A stretch of DNA of 35,484 nt, taken from a virus. How positions within the stretch are numbered: position 1 is the stretch's first letter; each line of letters opens with the position of its first letter. The DNA is taken from positions 1-35,484 of the IMG/VR virus record IMGVR_UViG_3300042465_002939. One strand, given 5' to 3'. The position numbers were made by a program, and so were the translations under genes. The notes under the pieces are model-generated. The model did no database searches. It saw nothing but the letters and a program-made list of their open reading frames with translations, and had not been told where the DNA came from. Of the stretch, positions 2,908-35,484 are shown in pieces.

Positions 2908-4134
2908 TCACCGTGCCATCGGCATGCTGACGGGGACAAGGCGGGCCTTCGGCTTGTCCTGCTTGGCCACGCGACGGGCGCCCTCGCAGGCATAGCGCAG
3001 CGCGTCGATGACGTGGTTTTTCTTGTCCTCCAGCACAGGCAAGATGCTGCCCGTGTCCCGGTCGGTCTTGTAGCTGTAGAGCGTCAACTCATCGATGGTG
3101 TGCTTGCAGCGCGGATGCACCACGATGTCAAAAGACTTCAGCCACTCAACGCCTTCTTCGACCGACTTCGGCCCCTTGACCGCCGGCATGATCTTCGGAA
3201 AGCCGTTCTTGCGCATGTGGCTGATCGTCTCCGGCCGCGCGCTGTCTGCCACCATCGGCCACTTCTCTGCCTCCGGGATCGACATGAACAGCGAAGGGGT
3301 GTCAACAATCTCGCAGCCAACCTGATAGGCCTCGTGGTCAATATATAGCTTCCGTCCTATAATGTGGCAGCGGATGCCAACCGTCGGATCGGTGGCAAAG
3401 CCCCAGTCAGCGCCCAAGCGATGGACGGCATCAGGCGGTGCCTCGAAGTCTTCAATGGCCCAGTTCTTGAACACGCGCGTTTCGCTGTTGCGGACATACT
3501 CGCCCTTCCAGACGTGCAGATATTTGTCTGGATCGCGCCGCTTGTCGTATTCCATTTCGTCCTTGAGAACGTCAGGGAACCACGGGTTGTCGGTATAGTT
3601 CACCTCGACGACCACGCTGTCAGGCGGCGGGTTGGTGCCACGCAGCAGGCCCTCAATCGGGTCCGTGTCGAAGCGTGGGTTCCAACTGAACAGCAGTTGC
3701 GAGCCGGGCTTGCGAAGCGTCGGGCGCAGGAGATCCAGCGAGAACTGGCTGATTGACTGGGCCTCCTCGACAAAGCAAATGTCGAACCCCTCCAGCGACT
3801 TCACGCTGTCGGCTGTGTGGTTCTGCATGCCCTGGAAGATGATGACGCCGCCGTGCGGGCATTTGATCTCGGCCTGCTGCACTTGGAACAGATGACCGAC
3901 GCCTAATTCCTCGATCTTGTTCTCAATCAGCTTCTTGACCGACTGCTTCAGAGACTTCTGCACCTCGCGCACGCAGACCACGTCGGTCTTGCGCATCACG
4001 CACCGCTCAACGATCCATTCCGCGAAGAAGGTTGACTTGCCAGATCCGCGCCCGCCGAACGCCCCGATGTAGCGGGCGCTCTCGCGTTGCAGGATCGGCA
4101 GCGCCCAGCGCGGTGTCTGGATGTTCAGCTTCAT
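2908..4134 (-). CDS. Terminase large subunit (ATPase and nuclease)
   Basis: 408 residues, Terminase_3 (PBSX/Sf6-type) family. The protein pumps DNA into the prohead using ATP and cuts the concatemer. Visible motifs are Walker A GGRGSGKST (residues 27-35), Walker B ICFVEEA (119-125, catalytic Glu), the SWNPR coupling-type motif, and a C-terminal RNase H-like nuclease with acidic residues in GADWGFATDP, VADSARPE and HVIDALRYA. The start overlaps the stop of the 58-residue gene upstream by ATGA. The portal follows after a gap of about 60 bases. Confidence 0.95.
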   Translation of the reverse strand: MKLNIQTPRWALPILQRESARYIGAFGGRGSGKSTFFAEWIVERCVMRKTDVVCVREVQKSLKQSVKKLIENKIEELGVGHLFQVQQAEIKCPHGGVIIFQGMQNHTADSVKSLEGFDICFVEEAQSISQFSLDLLRPTLRKPGSQLLFSWNPRFDTDPIEGLLRGTNPPPDSVVVEVNYTDNPWFPDVLKDEMEYDKRRDPDKYLHVWKGEYVRNSETRVFKNWAIEDFEAPPDAVHRLGADWGFATDPTVGIRCHIIGRKLYIDHEAYQVGCEIVDTPSLFMSIPEAEKWPMVADSARPETISHMRKNGFPKIMPAVKGPKSVEEGVEWLKSFDIVVHPRCKHTIDELTLYSYKTDRDTGSILPVLEDKKNHVIDALRYACEGARRVAKQDKPKARLVPVSMPMAR

Positions 4135-4307
4135 GCGTCTGGCGCAGACCTGGCTTTTCCGCCTGCGGTTTTGGTGGCAAGGGCCGTTTTGATTTCATCG
4201 ACGCTCACGCCGTAAAACGTTGCAGCACCCTCGATGCCATATCGATTAACGATGTTTTTCAGGCGCCGAAAGCGAGGCTCGCTGTCCAGTATCTGCTGCA
4301 CTGTCAT
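4131..4307 (-). CDS. Small unknown protein between TerS and TerL
   Basis: 58 residues starting MTVQQILDSE. ATG 4307 is chosen because GGAGAA lies about eight bases upstream; the same frame stays open to 4550 only as a shadow of TerS. The stop overlaps the TerL start by ATGA, so the two are probably coupled. The middle (RYGIEGAATFYGVSVDEIKTA) looks like a short helix-turn-helix fold, so it could bind DNA near the packaging site or help the terminase. I know no named family for it. Confidence 0.7.
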   Translation of the reverse strand: MTVQQILDSEPRFRRLKNIVNRYGIEGAATFYGVSVDEIKTALATKTAGGKARSAPDA

Positions 4308-4320
4308 GCTAGGTTCTCCA

Positions 4321-4737
4321 TCACGCTGACTTCGGATCGACGATGGTGCGTTTGATCTCGATCGGGATCGCTCCGCCGTCTGGCCCTGAGAGTTCCTGCT
4401 TGTCCTTCTGGCCAAGCATCTGCTTACCAAGCCAAACGAGCATTGTCGGGTTGCCATCCTGGGCAGCTTTCCACTGTGCGCGGCGCAGAGAAGCCTTCCC
4501 TTCGCCCTGGTGCTTTTTATAGAGGGCTTCAAAATTATCCACACCATCAATGCCTTGCTCTTTGATGCGGCGGTTTAGGGTCGTTTCGCTCATGTTCAGG
4601 ATGTCGCAGATTTCGTCGCGCGTGCACTGGATGCGGATCATATTGACGAGTTGCTCGAACTCCTTGTCGGTCATTGGCTTGGTCGGACCTTTTGGCCCTG
4701 TTTTTTTTCGCTCGGCGGCTGGCTTACGGGCGGCCAT
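4321..4737 (-). CDS. Terminase small subunit
   Basis: 138 residues from ATG 4737. GGGAGG lies seven bases upstream, and the start overlaps the methyltransferase stop as TGATG (an in-frame GTG at 4740 is less well placed). TerS recognises the packaging site and controls TerL. The N-terminus is basic (KPAAERKKTGPKGPTK). It is followed by a helix-turn-helix (TRDEICDILNMSETTLNRRI) and then the C-terminal pattern common in small terminases, LRRAQWKAAQDGNPTMLVWL followed by GKQMLGQKD. A run of eight T on the plus strand sits in the Lys-rich start. Confidence 0.9.
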   Translation of the reverse strand: MAARKPAAERKKTGPKGPTKPMTDKEFEQLVNMIRIQCTRDEICDILNMSETTLNRRIKEQGIDGVDNFEALYKKHQGEGKASLRRAQWKAAQDGNPTMLVWLGKQMLGQKDKQELSGPDGGAIPIEIKRTIVDPKSA

Positions 4738-5468
4738 CACGCGGCCTCCCTTTCAGCAGAGAGTTCGGCGAAGGTCTGGCCGGTGGCTTCAAGCGTTGCC
4801 TGCTGCCCGGTCCAGTCCTGCCACCGCTTGACGATCACGTCGCAGTAGCGCGGGTCCAGTTCCATCAGGCGCGCCTTGCGGCCGTGCTTCTCGCAGACGA
4901 TGGCGGTGGTTCCAGATCCAGCGAAACTGTCGAGGACCAGGTCGCTGCCCTTGGTGTTGTTGAGCATCTGGTATTCGAACAGTTCGACCGGCTTCATGGT
5001 CGGGTGCTCGCCGTTACGGCTGGGCTTGGCGAACTCGAGGATGGTGGTCTGCTTGCGGTCGGATGCCCAGAGGTGCGATGCGCCTTCCTTCCAGCCGTAG
5101 AGGCAGGGCTCGTGCATCCACTGGTAATCTTGGCGGCCGAGGACGAGGCTCGACTTCTTCCAGATCAGGCATTGACGGATCGACCAGCCAATGTCGGCTG
5201 CCGCGCCGCGGAAGTTGTAGCCTTCGCTGTCGGCATGCCAGATGTAGAACACCGCGCCCTTTTTCATCACAGCGTCTGCTGCGGAATAGGCATCCCGGAG
5301 GAATTGCCGGAAGGCGTCGTTCGACATGCTGTCGTTCTTGATGGTCAGCTTTTCCTTGGTGCCTCCCTCGTAGGCCACGTTGTAGGGCGGATCGGTGAGC
5401 CACATGTCCACAAGCTGGCCGTCGCACAGGCGCTCCATGTGCTCTATGGAGGTGCTGTCACCGCACAT
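4737..5468 (-). CDS. DNA N6/N4 methyltransferase, beta class (separated from its ParB-like domain)
   Basis: 243 residues if translation starts at ATG 5468; the frame stays open to a GTG at 5507. It transfers a methyl group from S-adenosylmethionine to an adenine N6 or cytosine N4. Motifs appear in beta-class order: catalytic DPPY (residues 26-29), HPTMKP (155-160), then the AdoMet-binding SFAGSG (181-186). The upstream ParB-like frame overlaps it, and the two would join in frame if one base were lost from the G11 tract at 5475-5485, giving a fused protein of about 410 residues. The first residues, MCGDST, are the second half of a linker usually written GDVWxLGxxRLxCGDS. As it stands, translation could restart at ATG 5468, with the G run acting as a ribosome site. 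It might protect phage DNA from restriction. Confidence 0.9.
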   Translation of the reverse strand: MCGDSTSIEHMERLCDGQLVDMWLTDPPYNVAYEGGTKEKLTIKNDSMSNDAFRQFLRDAYSAADAVMKKGAVFYIWHADSEGYNFRGAAADIGWSIRQCLIWKKSSLVLGRQDYQWMHEPCLYGWKEGASHLWASDRKQTTILEFAKPSRNGEHPTMKPVELFEYQMLNNTKGSDLVLDSFAGSGTTAIVCEKHGRKARLMELDPRYCDVIVKRWQDWTGQQATLEATGQTFAELSAEREAA

Positions 5469-5970
5469 AAGGCGCCCCCCCCCCCAGAAGCCAGACGTCG
5501 CCCTCACGGGTCACAGGGACGGCCGGTGCGTCGGGCACAGCATCGTCGTCGGTCAGTCCTTCCTTCGCTTCCTCTGGGAACAGCGCGCCGATCTCGTCGG
5601 CCTCAAAGCCGGTCAGCGAAAGGTCGAAACCCATGTCCTCAAGTTCGGTGAATTCGAGGGCGAGCAGTTCAGTGTCCCACTGGGCCAGTTCGGCCACCTT
5701 GTTCACCGAGAGGCGAAAGGCTTTGATCTGCGCATCGCTCATGTCGTCTGCGAGGACGACCGGCACTTCCTTCATGCCCAGCTTCTTGGCGGCTTTCAGG
5801 CGGAGGTGGCCATCGACCACGGTCCCGTCGCTCTTGGCGCAGATCGGAACACGGAAGCCGAACTCGCGGATGGCTGCGGCCACCTTATCGACTGCGTGAT
5901 CGTTTTTGCGGGGATTGCGAGCGTATTCGATGCAACGCTCAATGGGCCAGGTCTCGAATGTCAGTTTCAT
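5458..5970 (-). CDS. ParB-like N-terminal domain protein (front half of a ParB-methyltransferase)
   Basis: 170 residues from ATG 5970, with AGGTG just upstream; an in-frame TTG at 5991 is rejected. It carries the ParB/Srx-like fold signature: NPRKN (residues 19-23), IREFGFRVPI, and the box VVDGHLRLKAAKKLG (51-65). The following acidic stretch ends in GDVWLLGGG, the start of the usual linker to a methyltransferase domain. It then leaves frame in the G11 tract and stops at 5458 after APYVR. In phages this domain is commonly fused to an N6/N4 methyltransferase. Here the second half is intact in another frame directly downstream. Confidence 0.88.
   Translation of the reverse strand: MKLTFETWPIERCIEYARNPRKNDHAVDKVAAAIREFGFRVPICAKSDGTVVDGHLRLKAAKKLGMKEVPVVLADDMSDAQIKAFRLSVNKVAELAQWDTELLALEFTELEDMGFDLSLTGFEADEIGALFPEEAKEGLTDDDAVPDAPAVPVTREGDVWLLGGGAPYVR
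5475..5485 (-). repeat. Poly-G tract (G11) at the ParB/methyltransferase junction
   Basis: Eleven C on the plus strand, so eleven G in the coding strand. With ten G the ParB-like and methyltransferase frames join through WLLGGGRLMCGDS. With eleven they are separate. The position, exactly in the linker, is typical of a slipped-strand switch, but also of a homopolymer indel in assembly. Confidence 0.9.
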
Positions 5971-6005
5971 GCTCACCTCATCTCGGCGCAAAGCGGGCCG
6001 GGCGC

Positions 6006-6065
6006 GTCAGCGTGATGGCTTCCTTCCGGGCCGGATCATTCCGGTTTGCCGGACACCACGCTGAC
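6006..6065 (-). promoter_or_regulatory. Structured 5' leader of the late transcript
   Basis: On the minus strand GTCAGCGTG (6065-6057) pairs perfectly with CACGCTGAC (6014-6006), a 9-bp closing stem. Between them are TCCGG-CAAA-CCGGA and CCGGA-ATGA-TCCGG, either of which can form a 5-bp hairpin, plus a further CCGGA that allows a longer nested fold. The predicted start of the promoter at 6072-6100 falls at about 6065, so the transcript would begin with this element, about 95 bases before the ParB-like start. It could be an attenuator, a stability element or a protein- or ligand-binding leader. I do not recognise a known riboswitch. Confidence 0.6.
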
Positions 6066-6071
6066 CGTGCA

Positions 6072-6100
6072 ATTATATGCGCTTCACGCAATTTTCGCAA
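6072..6100 (-). promoter_or_regulatory. Sigma-70-type promoter for the packaging/late genes
   Basis: On the minus strand there is a -35 box TTGCGA (6100-6095), a 17-base spacer, and a perfect -10 box TATAAT (6077-6072). It points leftward into the ParB/methyltransferase, terminase and structural genes. A TTGCG-N5-CGCAt near-palindrome (6091-6077) fills the spacer and touches the -10 box, so a repressor bound there would block the polymerase. Confidence 0.65.
6077..6091. promoter_or_regulatory. Candidate operator TTGCG-N5-CGCAt
   Basis: Minus-strand TTGCGTGAAGCGCAT, a 15-base near-palindrome within the promoter at 6072-6100. Related 15-base sites lie at 11400-11414 and 13651-13665, also in control regions. 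The shared half-site suggests one phage regulator, most likely an XRE protein (13421-13624 or 7682-7894). Confidence 0.5.
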
Positions 6101-6104
6101 TGGC

Positions 6105-6593
6105 TCAGAGAGAAAACCACTCGACGAGGCGGCTCGAGACGTTCAGCGCGTCGGCCATCTCTCCGATTTCGACCAAGGCCCTCACCCACTGCGGGTGGCC
6201 GAGAATGTCGTGGCTGGTGAGTGCGACATAGGTGTAGGCCTCGAGACGGTCAGCGAAGCGCAGGCGCTCGTTGGTCTGGTCGATAGCATCCACACCCATC
6301 GAGGCGCAGGCGATGGCTTCTGCCGCGGCCAAGGCTCGATCAAGTTCTGGGTGCGCTCGCTTGGTGGGGCTTGGCACGTCCCCGACGATCAGTTCTCCGC
6401 AGTCGTGGTGCAGGGCTGCATAGAGCAAGGCCGGTGGCGCCTTGGGCCAGAAGAACAGGATGATTTGCGCCACCCGGCCGTGATGATCGGCGAGAGTTTG
6501 CGCTGGCACGTCGTGGTTTGTGTGCCAGCGCGTGACCGAGCCTGATCGGTAGATCGGGTGGATGCCGACCACGCGATGCTCTGGCGGTGTCAA
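6105..6593 (-). CDS. HD-domain hydrolase (YfbR-like nucleotidase)
   Basis: 162 residues. Metal-binding HD motifs are clear: RWH (residues 22-24), DHHGR (37-41), HHDCGEL (62-68), GD (71-72) and FADRLEA (113-119). This arrangement matches YfbR/YGK1-type 5'-deoxynucleotidases, which remove phosphate from dNMPs. A companion dCTP deaminase-like gene lies two genes upstream, so both probably adjust the nucleotide pool. The start is TTG 6593, overlapping the upstream stop as TTGA; there is no usable ATG before the first motif. Its stop is 4 bases before the late promoter, so it closes the early leftward block. Confidence 0.8.
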   Translation of the reverse strand: MTPPEHRVVGIHPIYRSGSVTRWHTNHDVPAQTLADHHGRVAQIILFFWPKAPPALLYAALHHDCGELIVGDVPSPTKRAHPELDRALAAAEAIACASMGVDAIDQTNERLRFADRLEAYTYVALTSHDILGHPQWVRALVEIGEMADALNVSSRLVEWFSL

Positions 6594-6844
6594 TTTTCCA
6601 GCCTCGATGAGATGACGGCGTGATTTAGCATCGAGACGGATGCAACCATGTGATGGAAGAATGAGCCATGCTCCCAGCCAAACATGGCAAGATCATCACC
6701 ATCGTGCGCAGCATAAGCCAGCGCTCGAATGTCTCCACTCTTTGCCTTTTCGAGAAGTCGCTCAAGCATTGATACAATTTCAGGATCAGGTTGACCTTTG
6801 ATGATCGCGCCATGAATGGCTTTGATCTCTGCTGACTTTGTCAT
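6590..6844 (-). CDS. Hypothetical protein
   Basis: 84 residues from ATG 6844, with GGAGG just upstream and an ATGA overlap with the deaminase stop. The first half is an amphipathic helix pattern (AIIKGQPDPEIVSMLERLLE); the second half has GDDLAMFGWEHGSFFHHMVA and could lie beside the HD enzyme. No family recognised. Its own stop overlaps the HD gene start. Confidence 0.7.
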   Translation of the reverse strand: MTKSAEIKAIHGAIIKGQPDPEIVSMLERLLEKAKSGDIRALAYAAHDGDDLAMFGWEHGSFFHHMVASVSMLNHAVISSRLEN

Positions 6845-7284
6845 TTTGCCTCCACCGGCATGTCGGGCTGGTCCTGGTATTTGCCGTTCCCGTAGCTGGC
6901 AGGAGCGACCACCTCGTGAAAGATCGCCTGCGCGATGCCTGCGCCCGCTGGAATGCTGAGAGGCTTCCACCCGTGATAGACCAGTTCCAGCGTCAGCCAG
7001 CCGCGCCATCCGGGCTCGATTACGGTGTTGAAAACAGAGAGGCCGCGCCGCGCCCAGGTGCTTTTGTCGTGGACGATCGCCACGAGGTTTTCCGGCATGT
7101 CAAAACGCTCGATGGTGCTGGCCAATGCGAAGCGGCGAAACGGGTGCAGCGTGACGGCCTGCTTGATCCGCAGATCGTATCCCGCTTCTGACAGCCCATA
7201 GCTGACGCCATGCTCGCGTAGCTTCATCCCTGCCATCGGTGTGAGCGGGCTGGCCTCGTAGAGTTTGCGTCCGTTGATGATCAT
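6841..7284 (-). CDS. dcd: dCTP deaminase / dUTPase-family protein
   Basis: 147 residues from ATG 7284 (ATGA overlap with the gene upstream). dCTP deaminase makes dUTP and ammonia from dCTP; some members also go on to dUMP. The trimeric beta-barrel signature is present: SEAGYDLRI (residues 32-40), VHDKSTWARRGL (71-82, with the conserved Ser75 and Arg79), VIEPGWRGWLTLEL (88-101, Glu100 at the catalytic position) and IPAGAGIAQAIF (111-122). It is shorter than E. coli Dcd (193) but within range for phage versions. It pairs with the HD nucleotidase-like gene downstream. Confidence 0.82.
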   Translation of the reverse strand: MIINGRKLYEASPLTPMAGMKLREHGVSYGLSEAGYDLRIKQAVTLHPFRRFALASTIERFDMPENLVAIVHDKSTWARRGLSVFNTVIEPGWRGWLTLELVYHGWKPLSIPAGAGIAQAIFHEVVAPASYGNGKYQDQPDMPVEAK

Positions 7285-7685
7285 GCTGCGGGCCACATTT
7301 CCAGAGTGTCGCCGTTGGCATCCTCGAGGCAGACGGTTCCGCGCTTTGCGTCGCGCGATGCCAGGCGAAACTGGCGCGATGCCTCGGATGGGATGCCAGA
7401 ATAAATCTCGCGCGGCTCGTCGGTCTTGCGGCCCGACCAGCGAATGACGAAGTGCGTCACGCCGTTGACCATGTCGAGCGTGTCGCGGATGTTGGCTGCC
7501 TTCATCTGGCACCAGTCTGGCGTCTGGTTCGGGTCGTCGATCTTGCGCGGGTTGCTGCGGTCCACATGGCTGCACACGCGGCCTGCAGGGCGGAAGTCGT
7601 TGAAGATGCACCAGTTGCAGTGGATGCGGTCGATTTCGTTTGTCTTGGGGTCAACGATGACCACTGGGCCGAATGATCTGCTCAT
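7281..7685 (-). CDS. Hypothetical protein with a cysteine cluster
   Basis: 134 residues from ATG 7685, overlapping the upstream XRE gene stop by ATGA. Cysteines are spaced CNWC (residues 23-26), VCSH (37-40) and WCQMK, which suggests a zinc site in the N-terminal half. The C-terminal half is mixed beta (THFVIRWSGRKTDEP and following) and may be a small globular domain. The gene sits between a small XRE regulator and the deaminase. Function unknown. Confidence 0.75.
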   Translation of the reverse strand: MSRSFGPVVIVDPKTNEIDRIHCNWCIFNDFRPAGRVCSHVDRSNPRKIDDPNQTPDWCQMKAANIRDTLDMVNGVTHFVIRWSGRKTDEPREIYSGIPSEASRQFRLASRDAKRGTVCLEDANGDTLEMWPAA

Positions 7686-12002: not shown

Positions 12003-12582
12003 CGGTGTCTCCCCCTGCGTTAAAGATTTCCTGAAGGTTGCTGGCGAGCCGCTTGGCCGCCGTGAGCGTCAGCGCTTTGCCCTTCGTCCGCTTCCGATAG
12101 GCGATGAAGCTGGCGACGGCATCTGGCGAAGCCCAGGCGCAGAGCGTTTCGGATATTTCGTTTGCCTCGGCGCGTCCCCCCTTGGGGGGCAGGGGGGTAT
12201 CTTGTTCACTTCCAGGGTTATCTCTTCCAAGGTTATTGGCTGGCAAATTTTGCCACCCCACCCGTGCAGATTTTGCCACCCCGGATGGCAAATTTTGCCA
12301 CCCCTCATCGGCTTGCAAATGGAAGGCAAAGCTGTTCGCAGTCTGCTGCCCGTCCTCTCGAAAAGCGTTCTCGATCGAGATCAAACCGGCCTCCTGCAGC
12401 GCCGCGATCTGGTCTTGGACCGATCGCTTCGACATCTCGCAGACCTCGGCAAGGCGCGCGAGGCTTGGGAAGCACCTTCCGGTCTCTCCGTTGTGGTGAT
12501 CCGCCAGCCAATAAAGCACGATCTTGGCGGCCGGTTTCAGCCCCCTCTGCTTCATCGCCAGCGCCGTCATGTAGTGGCTCAT
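11839..12582 (-). CDS. Replication initiator, lambda O-like winged-helix protein
   Basis: 247 residues from ATG 12582, with AGGAG upstream. Residues 15-75 form a helix_turn_helix_36-type winged helix (KIVLYWLADHHNGETGRCFP ... LARLAEVCEMSKRSVQDQIA), as in phage and plasmid initiators. The middle (about residues 90-115) is repetitive (GWQNLPS, GWQNLPA) because the DNA there carries iteron-like repeats. The C-terminal part ends with LAEERGWQSVKPEWYFN, similar to DnaT/O-like C-termini that contact helicase or loader. Like lambda O, it probably binds repeats within its own gene and recruits host DnaB. Confidence 0.8.
   Translation of the reverse strand: MSHYMTALAMKQRGLKPAAKIVLYWLADHHNGETGRCFPSLARLAEVCEMSKRSVQDQIAALQEAGLISIENAFREDGQQTANSFAFHLQADEGWQNLPSGVAKSARVGWQNLPANNLGRDNPGSEQDTPLPPKGGRAEANEISETLCAWASPDAVASFIAYRKRTKGKALTLTAAKRLASNLQEIFNAGGDTDDALGLAEERGWQSVKPEWYFNDKQRADRGANRQGSGMAAAFAAVAARSTPRQG
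12180..12235. other. AT-richer stretch with a tandem imperfect repeat next to the iterons
   Basis: Next to the iterons, on the downstream side in coding direction, two near-identical units TTCCAGGGTTAT and TTCCAAGGTTAT lie in tandem, in a stretch of lower GC than its surroundings. In lambda ori the iterons are likewise followed by an AT-rich unwinding region. A C6-TT-G6 palindrome lies just beyond. Confidence 0.4.
12243..12304. repeat. Three iteron-like repeats inside the initiator gene (candidate origin)
   Basis: Three 17-base copies of GCAAATTTTGCCACCCC are found at 12243-12259, 12266-12282 (one change, GCAGATTTT) and 12288-12304. Starts are 23 and 22 bases apart, about two helix turns. 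Each core, GGCAAATTTTGCC, is itself nearly palindromic. Such in-gene iterons are the hallmark of lambda-type origins. Confidence 0.7.
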
Positions 12583-31435: not shown

Positions 31436-32368
31436 TTAGAACTTGATGGACAGATTGAACGATTGCAGCGTCACAACGTTGTTGGCCGTGGCAGGTTGCG
31501 CGGTGATTGCAAAGACCTGGTCAGCAGTAGCATCGACAGACAGGTTTACGATTGCGCCTGTTGAAAGCCCGTGACCGGTCGTGCCGACGGCGCTCCCGAT
31601 GATCTGCGAAGATCCACGATTTGAAAGGATTTTTTGCGCATCAACGCTGGCGTTACTCGCAGCGGCAACAGTCATCACGGCGCCGCCGCCAAAAGTCATG
31701 CCAAGGTTCTTCGCGGTGGCGTTGTTAGTCATGCTGAACAGGGCCTCAATAAACATGATGCCGCCGATGCCCATTGACGAACCCGGCACGGTGACAGATG
31801 CCAGCGTTACAGCAGTGTTTGCCACGGCCACGGTCGGTGTGCCAAGTCCAGACCTGAACGGCAGGTTGATGGTGATCTTGAGGCCGGTGGTGTCCGTATC
31901 CAGAGCCGTGACGGCATAGAACCCGTTGACGCCCGTGCCGGTCGCCCAGGTCACATAGACGCTTGCGCCAACCGCAACAGCGGCGGTCAGGCCATGCGCG
32001 CCCGCGCTGACAAGGCGAACAAGGCCGGCGTTGGTCTCATAGGTCAGCGTGGTGAATGTAGCCGCTGGCTGCACCAAGCTAACAGGCGTCACAGAGCCAA
32101 GCACCAGAGCCGGGAAGCTGCGCAGCTTGGGCTGCACCGCGACATCGTATTCCACCGTCGCGCCGCGATTGTAGATCGTGGCAACGCGGTCGTTAGCATA
32201 GGGGCCGAATGTCTGCGCGCGGTTGGACAGTTCGACCACGCCGGTCGGGGTTTGCACGCCGATCTGAACCAGCGTCGGCTGGTCGCCAATGCTGCCCACG
32301 CTCAAGGACGATCCGCGCGGGATCAGGATTTCTTTTTCAGTGCTTACTGCGGATGCGTAGAGGAACAT
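31436..32368 (-). CDS. Large beta-rich virion protein
   Basis: 310 residues from ATG 32368, favoured by AAGGA eight bases upstream; ATG 32374 (two residues longer) also fits. Beta-strand alternation throughout (SVTPVSLVQPAATFTTLTYE, VGASVYVTWATGTGVNGFYA). The front (KEILIPRGSSLSVGSIGDQP) may be a docking segment. It lies between gp4- and gp10-like genes, where P22 has none, so it may be an extra head or neck fibre. No family recognised. Confidence 0.68.
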   Translation of the reverse strand: MFLYASAVSTEKEILIPRGSSLSVGSIGDQPTLVQIGVQTPTGVVELSNRAQTFGPYANDRVATIYNRGATVEYDVAVQPKLRSFPALVLGSVTPVSLVQPAATFTTLTYETNAGLVRLVSAGAHGLTAAVAVGASVYVTWATGTGVNGFYAVTALDTDTTGLKITINLPFRSGLGTPTVAVANTAVTLASVTVPGSSMGIGGIMFIEALFSMTNNATAKNLGMTFGGGAVMTVAAASNASVDAQKILSNRGSSQIIGSAVGTTGHGLSTGAIVNLSVDATADQVFAITAQPATANNVVTLQSFNLSIKF

Positions 32369-35244: not shown

Positions 35245-35484
35245 TTAGCCCTTGGCCTTCTGCTTCTTATACTGGAAAACCTTGGAATAGTCGCCAGTCT
35301 TTTCTGCTTCAGACCGCAGGCGGTCGAGGGTGCTGTCAACCGCGCCAGACGGGCGGGCGGTGCCGCTGATCTTGCGCTCGGGTGACGATTGAGCCTTACG
35401 GTTCGAGATCTTCAACTGCGTCTCCAATTTCGCAACCGCGAAGGCGAACTTCACGGGATCGGTGATGGAAGCGATTTCCTTCGC
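35245..35484 (-). CDS. Capsid scaffolding protein, 3' part (continues at base 1-751)
   Basis: C-terminal part of the scaffold gene, ending at TAA 35245; bases 35358-35484 duplicate the left end. The frame enters without a stop and continues into the 5' part that starts at 751. A local ATG at 35454 would give a 69-residue shadow and is not the true start. The Lys-rich end (VFQYKKQKAKG) is where a coat-binding tail is expected. Confidence 0.78.
   Translation of the reverse strand, partial: AKEIASITDPVKFAFAVAKLETQLKISNRKAQSSPERKISGTARPSGAVDSTLDRLRSEAEKTGDYSKVFQYKKQKAKG
35358..35484. repeat. Terminal direct repeat, right copy
   Basis: Identical to bases 1-127; see the left copy. One copy should be removed when the circle is closed. 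Confidence 0.9.

Follow-up and report, generated by a model that had tools for sequence, protein, structure and literature searches.

The 5′ leader of the late operon in a P22-like phage holds, in the explanation that we favour and to which we give about an even chance, two conserved RNA structures, of which the first and larger acts as a single-state, 5′-terminal cis element. This first structure, element A, is a 60-nt irregular hairpin that starts at the predicted transcription start; the second, element B, is a small stem-loop beside the Shine-Dalgarno sequence. Comparison with relatives shows that both are under selection as RNA structures, and that B is the older leader, with A optionally inserted at its +1. 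This adds a candidate RNA family, supported by covariation, to the beginnings of phage late operons, where little is understood of how late expression is controlled in phages not of the lambda type.

Genome and gene context

The virus record analysed here, referred to over its entire length as the window, comprises 35,484 bases. Its first and last 127 bases are identical (a perfect terminal direct repeat, positions 1-127 and 35358-35484), and the window is therefore taken to be the whole of a circularly permuted genome of ∼35.36 kb, which is most likely what the record represents. The late operon is headed by a promoter and leader on the minus strand. Upstream on the same strand are replication and nucleotide genes, encoding an O-like initiator, SSB, dCTP deaminase, an HD nucleotidase and a family annotated as polymerase processivity factor; the last gene before the promoter is that of the HD/YfbR-like nucleotidase (6105-6593, minus strand). 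Downstream, likewise on the minus strand, are a ParB_N-domain CDS (5458-5970, gene 1 of the late operon, with its ATG at 5970 behind GAGGTG), an N6_N4 DNA methyltransferase ORF in a different frame (4737-5507), a probable small terminase subunit (4321-4740), the large terminase subunit (2908-4134) and a P22-like portal protein (777-2846), and the capsid and other virion genes come after the portal, round the circle. This arrangement, with replication and nucleotide genes upstream and packaging and virion genes downstream, places the promoter at the early-to-late junction. The small terminase candidate (4321-4740), for which Pfam gave no match, was assigned by its sequence and its position directly after the methyltransferase. 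On the circular map ∼22 kb of late operon lies downstream of the leader, close to the ∼23 kb given in an earlier note made from the window's sequence.

The first late gene had been described as ParB-like. It does carry a ParB_N domain, but there is more to the gene than this: in several relatives the ParB_N CDS is the N-terminal part of a ParB_N-methyltransferase fusion, and in L002, L004 and L005 there is one ParB_N-methyltransferase gene of ∼410 codons, versus two overlapping frames in the window. The frame is broken in the window at a run of 11 G (a C run at 5475-5485 on the plus strand), and a run of this type was found in none of the relatives examined. Phase variation, slippage and sequencing error are possible causes.

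The late promoter

The promoter consists of a -35 box TTGCGA (6095-6100) and a -10 box TATAAT (6072-6077) with a 17-nt spacer, on the minus strand (6100-6072), as had been proposed, and transcription is predicted to start at 6065 from the distance to the -10 box. The match taken by itself is weak: the first 18 kb contain three promoter matches of 10/12, this one included, and promoter-like sites are in no excess (5 versus 3.7 in shuffles). The arrangement TTGCGA-17-TAnnAT recurs in relatives, where it directly follows the stop of the same upstream gene, with the -35 box in the same place (L175, L180, L177/L178, L181-L186), and it is retained also where a gene other than ParB comes next. The -10 box is TAGAAT in L002 and L003.

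An inverted motif, TTGCG...CGCAT, lies in the promoter spacer (6078-6095) and occurs also in L002, L003, L005 and L181-L186. It is kept in the TTGCGA-type promoters that have ParB downstream, and is possibly an operator.

Structure of the 60-nt hairpin

Element A (6006-6065, minus strand) starts at ∼+1, 6 nt past the -10 box (as in L002, L003 and L122), and ends 35 nt before the ATG at 5970, in agreement with the previous estimate of about 35 bases. The perfect 9-bp closing stem reported earlier, GTCAGCGTG/CACGCTGAC, is present and extends to 12 pairs, including one G-U, which form helix P1 (6065-6054/6017-6006). It is followed by helices P2 (6053-6049/6029-6025) and P3 (6044-6040/6035-6031) of 5 bp each, giving 22 pairs interrupted by bulges. 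The unpaired parts include a 5′ internal loop CAAA (6048-6045), a 3′ purine bulge AGGAAGC (6024-6018) and the apical loop AUGA (6039-6036).

Folded alone, the hairpin has a predicted energy of -32.5 kcal/mol (z -5.0), and none of 200 shuffles was as stable, which bears out the structured leader described as beginning at the predicted start; for the whole leader z is only -2.3. The repeated TCCGG/CCGGA units, from which two alternative folds had been proposed, are real in the window copy, but the folds are unequal. The alternative has an energy of -24.5 to -27.3 kcal/mol, that is 5-8 kcal/mol worse, with a pair probability of ∼0.003, and its partners are not complementary in the diverged homologue in L122, so that the second fold is impossible there.

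Across the whole window, Rfam 15 gave no family above the gathering threshold (the best sub-threshold match scored 10.3 bits versus 50 required), and L122 gave no match. The leader sequence had no match in phage or plasmid collections, and no credible second copy of the hairpin was found in the genome, where 32043-32083 gives only 17 bits. The hairpin is thus a candidate for an RNA family absent from Rfam 15, though as a structured 5′ leader of a phage it belongs to a known type.

Conservation and covariation of the hairpin

In L002 and L003 the hairpin is identical to that of the window at 60/60 and 59/60 positions, versus 71-72% identity for the upstream gene and 77% for third codon positions of the ParB gene. 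Identity falls to 50% in the six bases between the -10 box and the hairpin, showing that the conserved block starts at the predicted +1. The high identity among these three copies continues into the start of the ParB gene, which is unusually alike, and recent exchange may therefore add to the identity of the hairpin.

A covariance model built from these three close copies only (window, L002 and L003) detects a 62-nt homologue in L122, L126 and L190 (59.8 bits, E 1e-10 to 1e-11), which are three contigs of one phage species. The neighbours in this lineage are a DUF6378 gene upstream and a different N6_N4 methyltransferase downstream, followed by terminase and portal, and the promoter (TTGAAC-17-TATACT) is its own. 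Between the two lineages four pairs, one each in P1 and P2 and two in P3, have had both bases replaced and still pair; in the L122 lineage P3 is one pair longer, and two of the 22 pairs are lost. Compensatory changes are thus present in all three helices, the check that the earlier note had set beforehand and the mark of a conserved structured RNA; they amount to one comparison, since there are two lineages only and the second is a single phage species. Cells of the alignment are paired in 97% of cases, versus 31-41% in controls slid by 1-3 columns, which contain no double changes, and randomly placed substitutions give four compensated pairs in 0.03% of trials. Folded alone, the L122 copy stands out less (z -2.6). 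Read on this strand, the fold relies on G-U pairs in each lineage, which indicates that the transcribed strand is the one folded. Between lineages no change is seen in the AUGA loop, in the purine bulge AAGGAAG, in the lower arms CAGCGTG/CACGCTG or in most of P1, and the A-rich internal loop has one change. With this pattern, element A looks like an RNA fold under selection that also makes some sequence-specific contacts.

A search of viral contigs with the pattern ATGATN{6,14}AAGGAAGCCATCA gave >100 matches. Most of those listed encode MIQNSGKEAI, part of an unrelated coding gene, and the other listed matches not already known looked like chance. L191, L085-L087 and L089 are chance matches, and L093 (a Dorea genome), the sole match in the genome collection, was taken as one. 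Further true copies of the hairpin may exist beyond the matches listed.

The small stem-loop beside the Shine-Dalgarno sequence

Element B (5984-6005, minus strand) consists of GCGNCC and a stem-loop and is common to the phage group. In the window it sits between the 60-nt hairpin and the Shine-Dalgarno sequence; its stem (6000-5996/5989-5984) has a bulged C5988 and a loop CGCTTT, and the Shine-Dalgarno region GAGATGAGG (5976-5984, minus strand) is kept in late leaders. The bulged base alone differs in L002/L003.

The late leaders without the hairpin (L032, L094, L097, L102, L103, L108, L124, L125, L129, L175, L179, L180 and L314) have a shared layout, in which the -10 box is followed by 5-8 bases, (A/T/C)GCG(A/T)CC, a 4-6 bp stem with a loop CGCTAT, CGCTT or similar, GAGATGAGG or a variant, and the start codon. 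The leader native to L122, upstream of its small terminase gene, has the same layout. These short leaders (L032, L094, L103, L124, L175 and others) resemble that of the window in position, in GCGNCC and stem-loop, in the Shine-Dalgarno sequence and in the start codon, but lack the 60-nt hairpin, which the window has inserted between +1 and the leader.

The stem is immediately 5′ of GAGA in 12/12 leaders, and in an alignment-free test of 12 leaders the summed stem length is 59, versus a maximum of 44 in 5000 shuffles. The stem covaries strongly: in a manual alignment, all six standard pair types occur at a single stem position. The pair table was taken from this manual alignment because MAFFT set the loop gap wrongly, with the alignment-free test as control. 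The GCG and CGC of element B could pair as a pseudoknot. Of the two elements, this CGCU hairpin has the wider distribution.

Presence and absence of the hairpin among relatives

G016 (contig L126) and its sister G015 differ by a block comprising promoter, hairpin and methyltransferase, which G015 lacks. In G015 the native late promoter comes directly after the DUF6378 gene, with a short leader and the small terminase gene behind it, and G016 retains these three downstream of its methyltransferase. Since G015 is without the block that its sister carries, the 60-nt hairpin is an optional module. This natural pair, together with the short-leader relatives, makes the role of the hairpin directly testable. 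In L126 a 961-codon ORF lies between the small and large terminase genes (3119-6004), with no counterpart in the window.

The hairpin is followed by an N6_N4 methyltransferase gene in both lineages. L005 has the ParB-methyltransferase gene and the same promoter, with the hairpin absent. Only the 3′ half of the hairpin is left in L004 (3046-3122), L013 (582-658) and L016 (5923-5999), where a strong intrinsic terminator, directly before the residual half, replaces the promoter and 5′ arm, and a C-to-T change in the residual arm makes an ATG with a good Shine-Dalgarno sequence.

Small reading frames occur in some of these leaders, namely a 23-codon ORF in L122, which begins in the apical loop and runs into the start of the methyltransferase gene, and an 11-codon ORF in L004, L013 and L016. 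A leader peptide was rejected, as the two lineages do not share the frame and wobble positions are conserved to the same degree as the others.

Possible functions of the hairpin

Element A would form the 5′ end of the late transcript and act in cis after initiation, its unpaired purines probably serving as the recognition site for a protein of the host or the phage, or for RNA polymerase. Most likely, it would protect or tune an mRNA whose first gene encodes a DNA methyltransferase. In such an element the upper arms may drift if pairing is kept, and most of the lower stem, the purine-rich bulge and the AUGA loop would keep their sequence. Stem-loops of the ompA/papA type at the 5′ terminus hinder 5′-end-dependent decay (PMC3997798). 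The window stem resembles these in beginning at the first transcribed nucleotides, as judged from the predicted start, but the ompA/papA type needs just a 5′-end stem, whereas the window hairpin conserves unpaired sequence too. The preference for stabilisation or tuning over other 5′-end roles is a judgement, not a result.

It was also suggested that the leader might be a put-like antiterminator, in which the hairpin, while still being transcribed, binds RNA polymerase close to the promoter and renders it processive through the late operon. The known example, HK022 putL, is ∼70 nt long and lies just downstream of PL; putRNA has two stem-loops in ∼70 nt, occurs in two copies at early promoters, and is defined by antitermination through the β′ zinc-binding domain (PMC9378689). 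Like putL, element A is a structured RNA of similar length (∼60 nt, bulged, with conserved unpaired bases) that starts at ∼+1, just downstream of a phage promoter, and it precedes a long operon. Unlike putRNA, it is one irregular hairpin at a late promoter, present in one copy, with no sequence match, and known from sequence alone; the separate small stem-loop that follows does not make it a two-stem-loop element of the put type. The suggestion is further weakened by near relatives that share the terminase-portal operon and lack the hairpin, which argues against an essential antiterminator. In G016, moreover, the hairpin precedes the methyltransferase only, with the native late promoter downstream, and no strong intrinsic terminator was seen in the late region. 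An antiterminating role is thus unlikely, although among the alternatives none ranks above it.

Equally unlikely is a role in translational or autogenous control of the DNA methyltransferase or ParB_N-methyltransferase that follows. The link to methylation raised in the earlier note holds insofar as an N6_N4 methyltransferase follows the hairpin in both lineages, though the two are different proteins, and G015, which has no methyltransferase, has neither the hairpin nor the hairpin's promoter. Against this, the fusion gene of L005 has no hairpin, the two methyltransferases are only distantly related, and the Shine-Dalgarno sequence lies ∼27 nt past the hairpin, which leaves it free in the predicted fold.

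RNase III signals, irregular intercistronic hairpins of about two helical turns that are cleaved at a specific site, lie between T7 early genes, and a processing signal at the early/middle-late junction would give the late mRNA a defined 5′ end. The irregular 60-nt hairpin, with ∼22 pairs and an asymmetric bulge, lies between co-oriented genes, and is close in length and setting to T7 R1.1, a ∼60-nt element between co-transcribed phage genes whose substrate has the same length (60 nt, cut into 47 and 13 nt; PMC4858673). Unlike R1.1, it lies in each lineage at +1 behind a promoter of its own and conserves loop and bulge sequence beyond what dsRNA recognition should need, and the folded T7 intergenic region I gave no clearly similar irregular hairpin. 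This origin is slightly less probable still than the two preceding alternatives.

Doubtful too, and more so than RNase III processing, is a reading in which the 60-nt and CGCU-loop hairpins form a new RNA family of phages, placed close to promoters, by which RNA polymerase is loaded or marked at P22-like late promoters, the hosts of these phages probably being Alphaproteobacteria. If true, this would be late control by RNA only, or by RNA plus a host factor, outside the lambdoid Q and HK022 put systems.

A DNA operator, that is an inverted repeat over +1 bound by a repressor or activator, is improbable. The long inverted repeat right at the start, with lower arms identical across lineages, would suit it, but P2 and P3 change in sequence with complementarity kept, P3 even gaining a pair, and such compensated changes are not expected from a DNA-binding protein that reads sequence. 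The G-U pairs suit the transcribed strand only, and the asymmetric bulges are conserved.

Least probable by far is a switch or attenuator that senses a ligand or methylation and has a choice of two folds, for which the TCCGG/CCGGA units speak in the window copy, as the alternative fold is improbable and not conserved and no intrinsic terminator follows the leader for it to act on; in the favoured explanation the leader is not a ligand-driven or attenuator switch.

Other features of the genomes

A dCTP deaminase gene is present in the window (6841-7611), L126 (997-1443) and L082, with 83-84% amino-acid identity. Among the compared genomes, several of the hairpinless ones being partial, it occurs only in carriers of the 60-nt hairpin. 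Within the O-like replication initiator gene of the window are three tandem 22-nt repeats of the GGCTGGCAAATTTTGCCACCCC type (12238-12304), which resemble the origin iterons of lambdoid phages.
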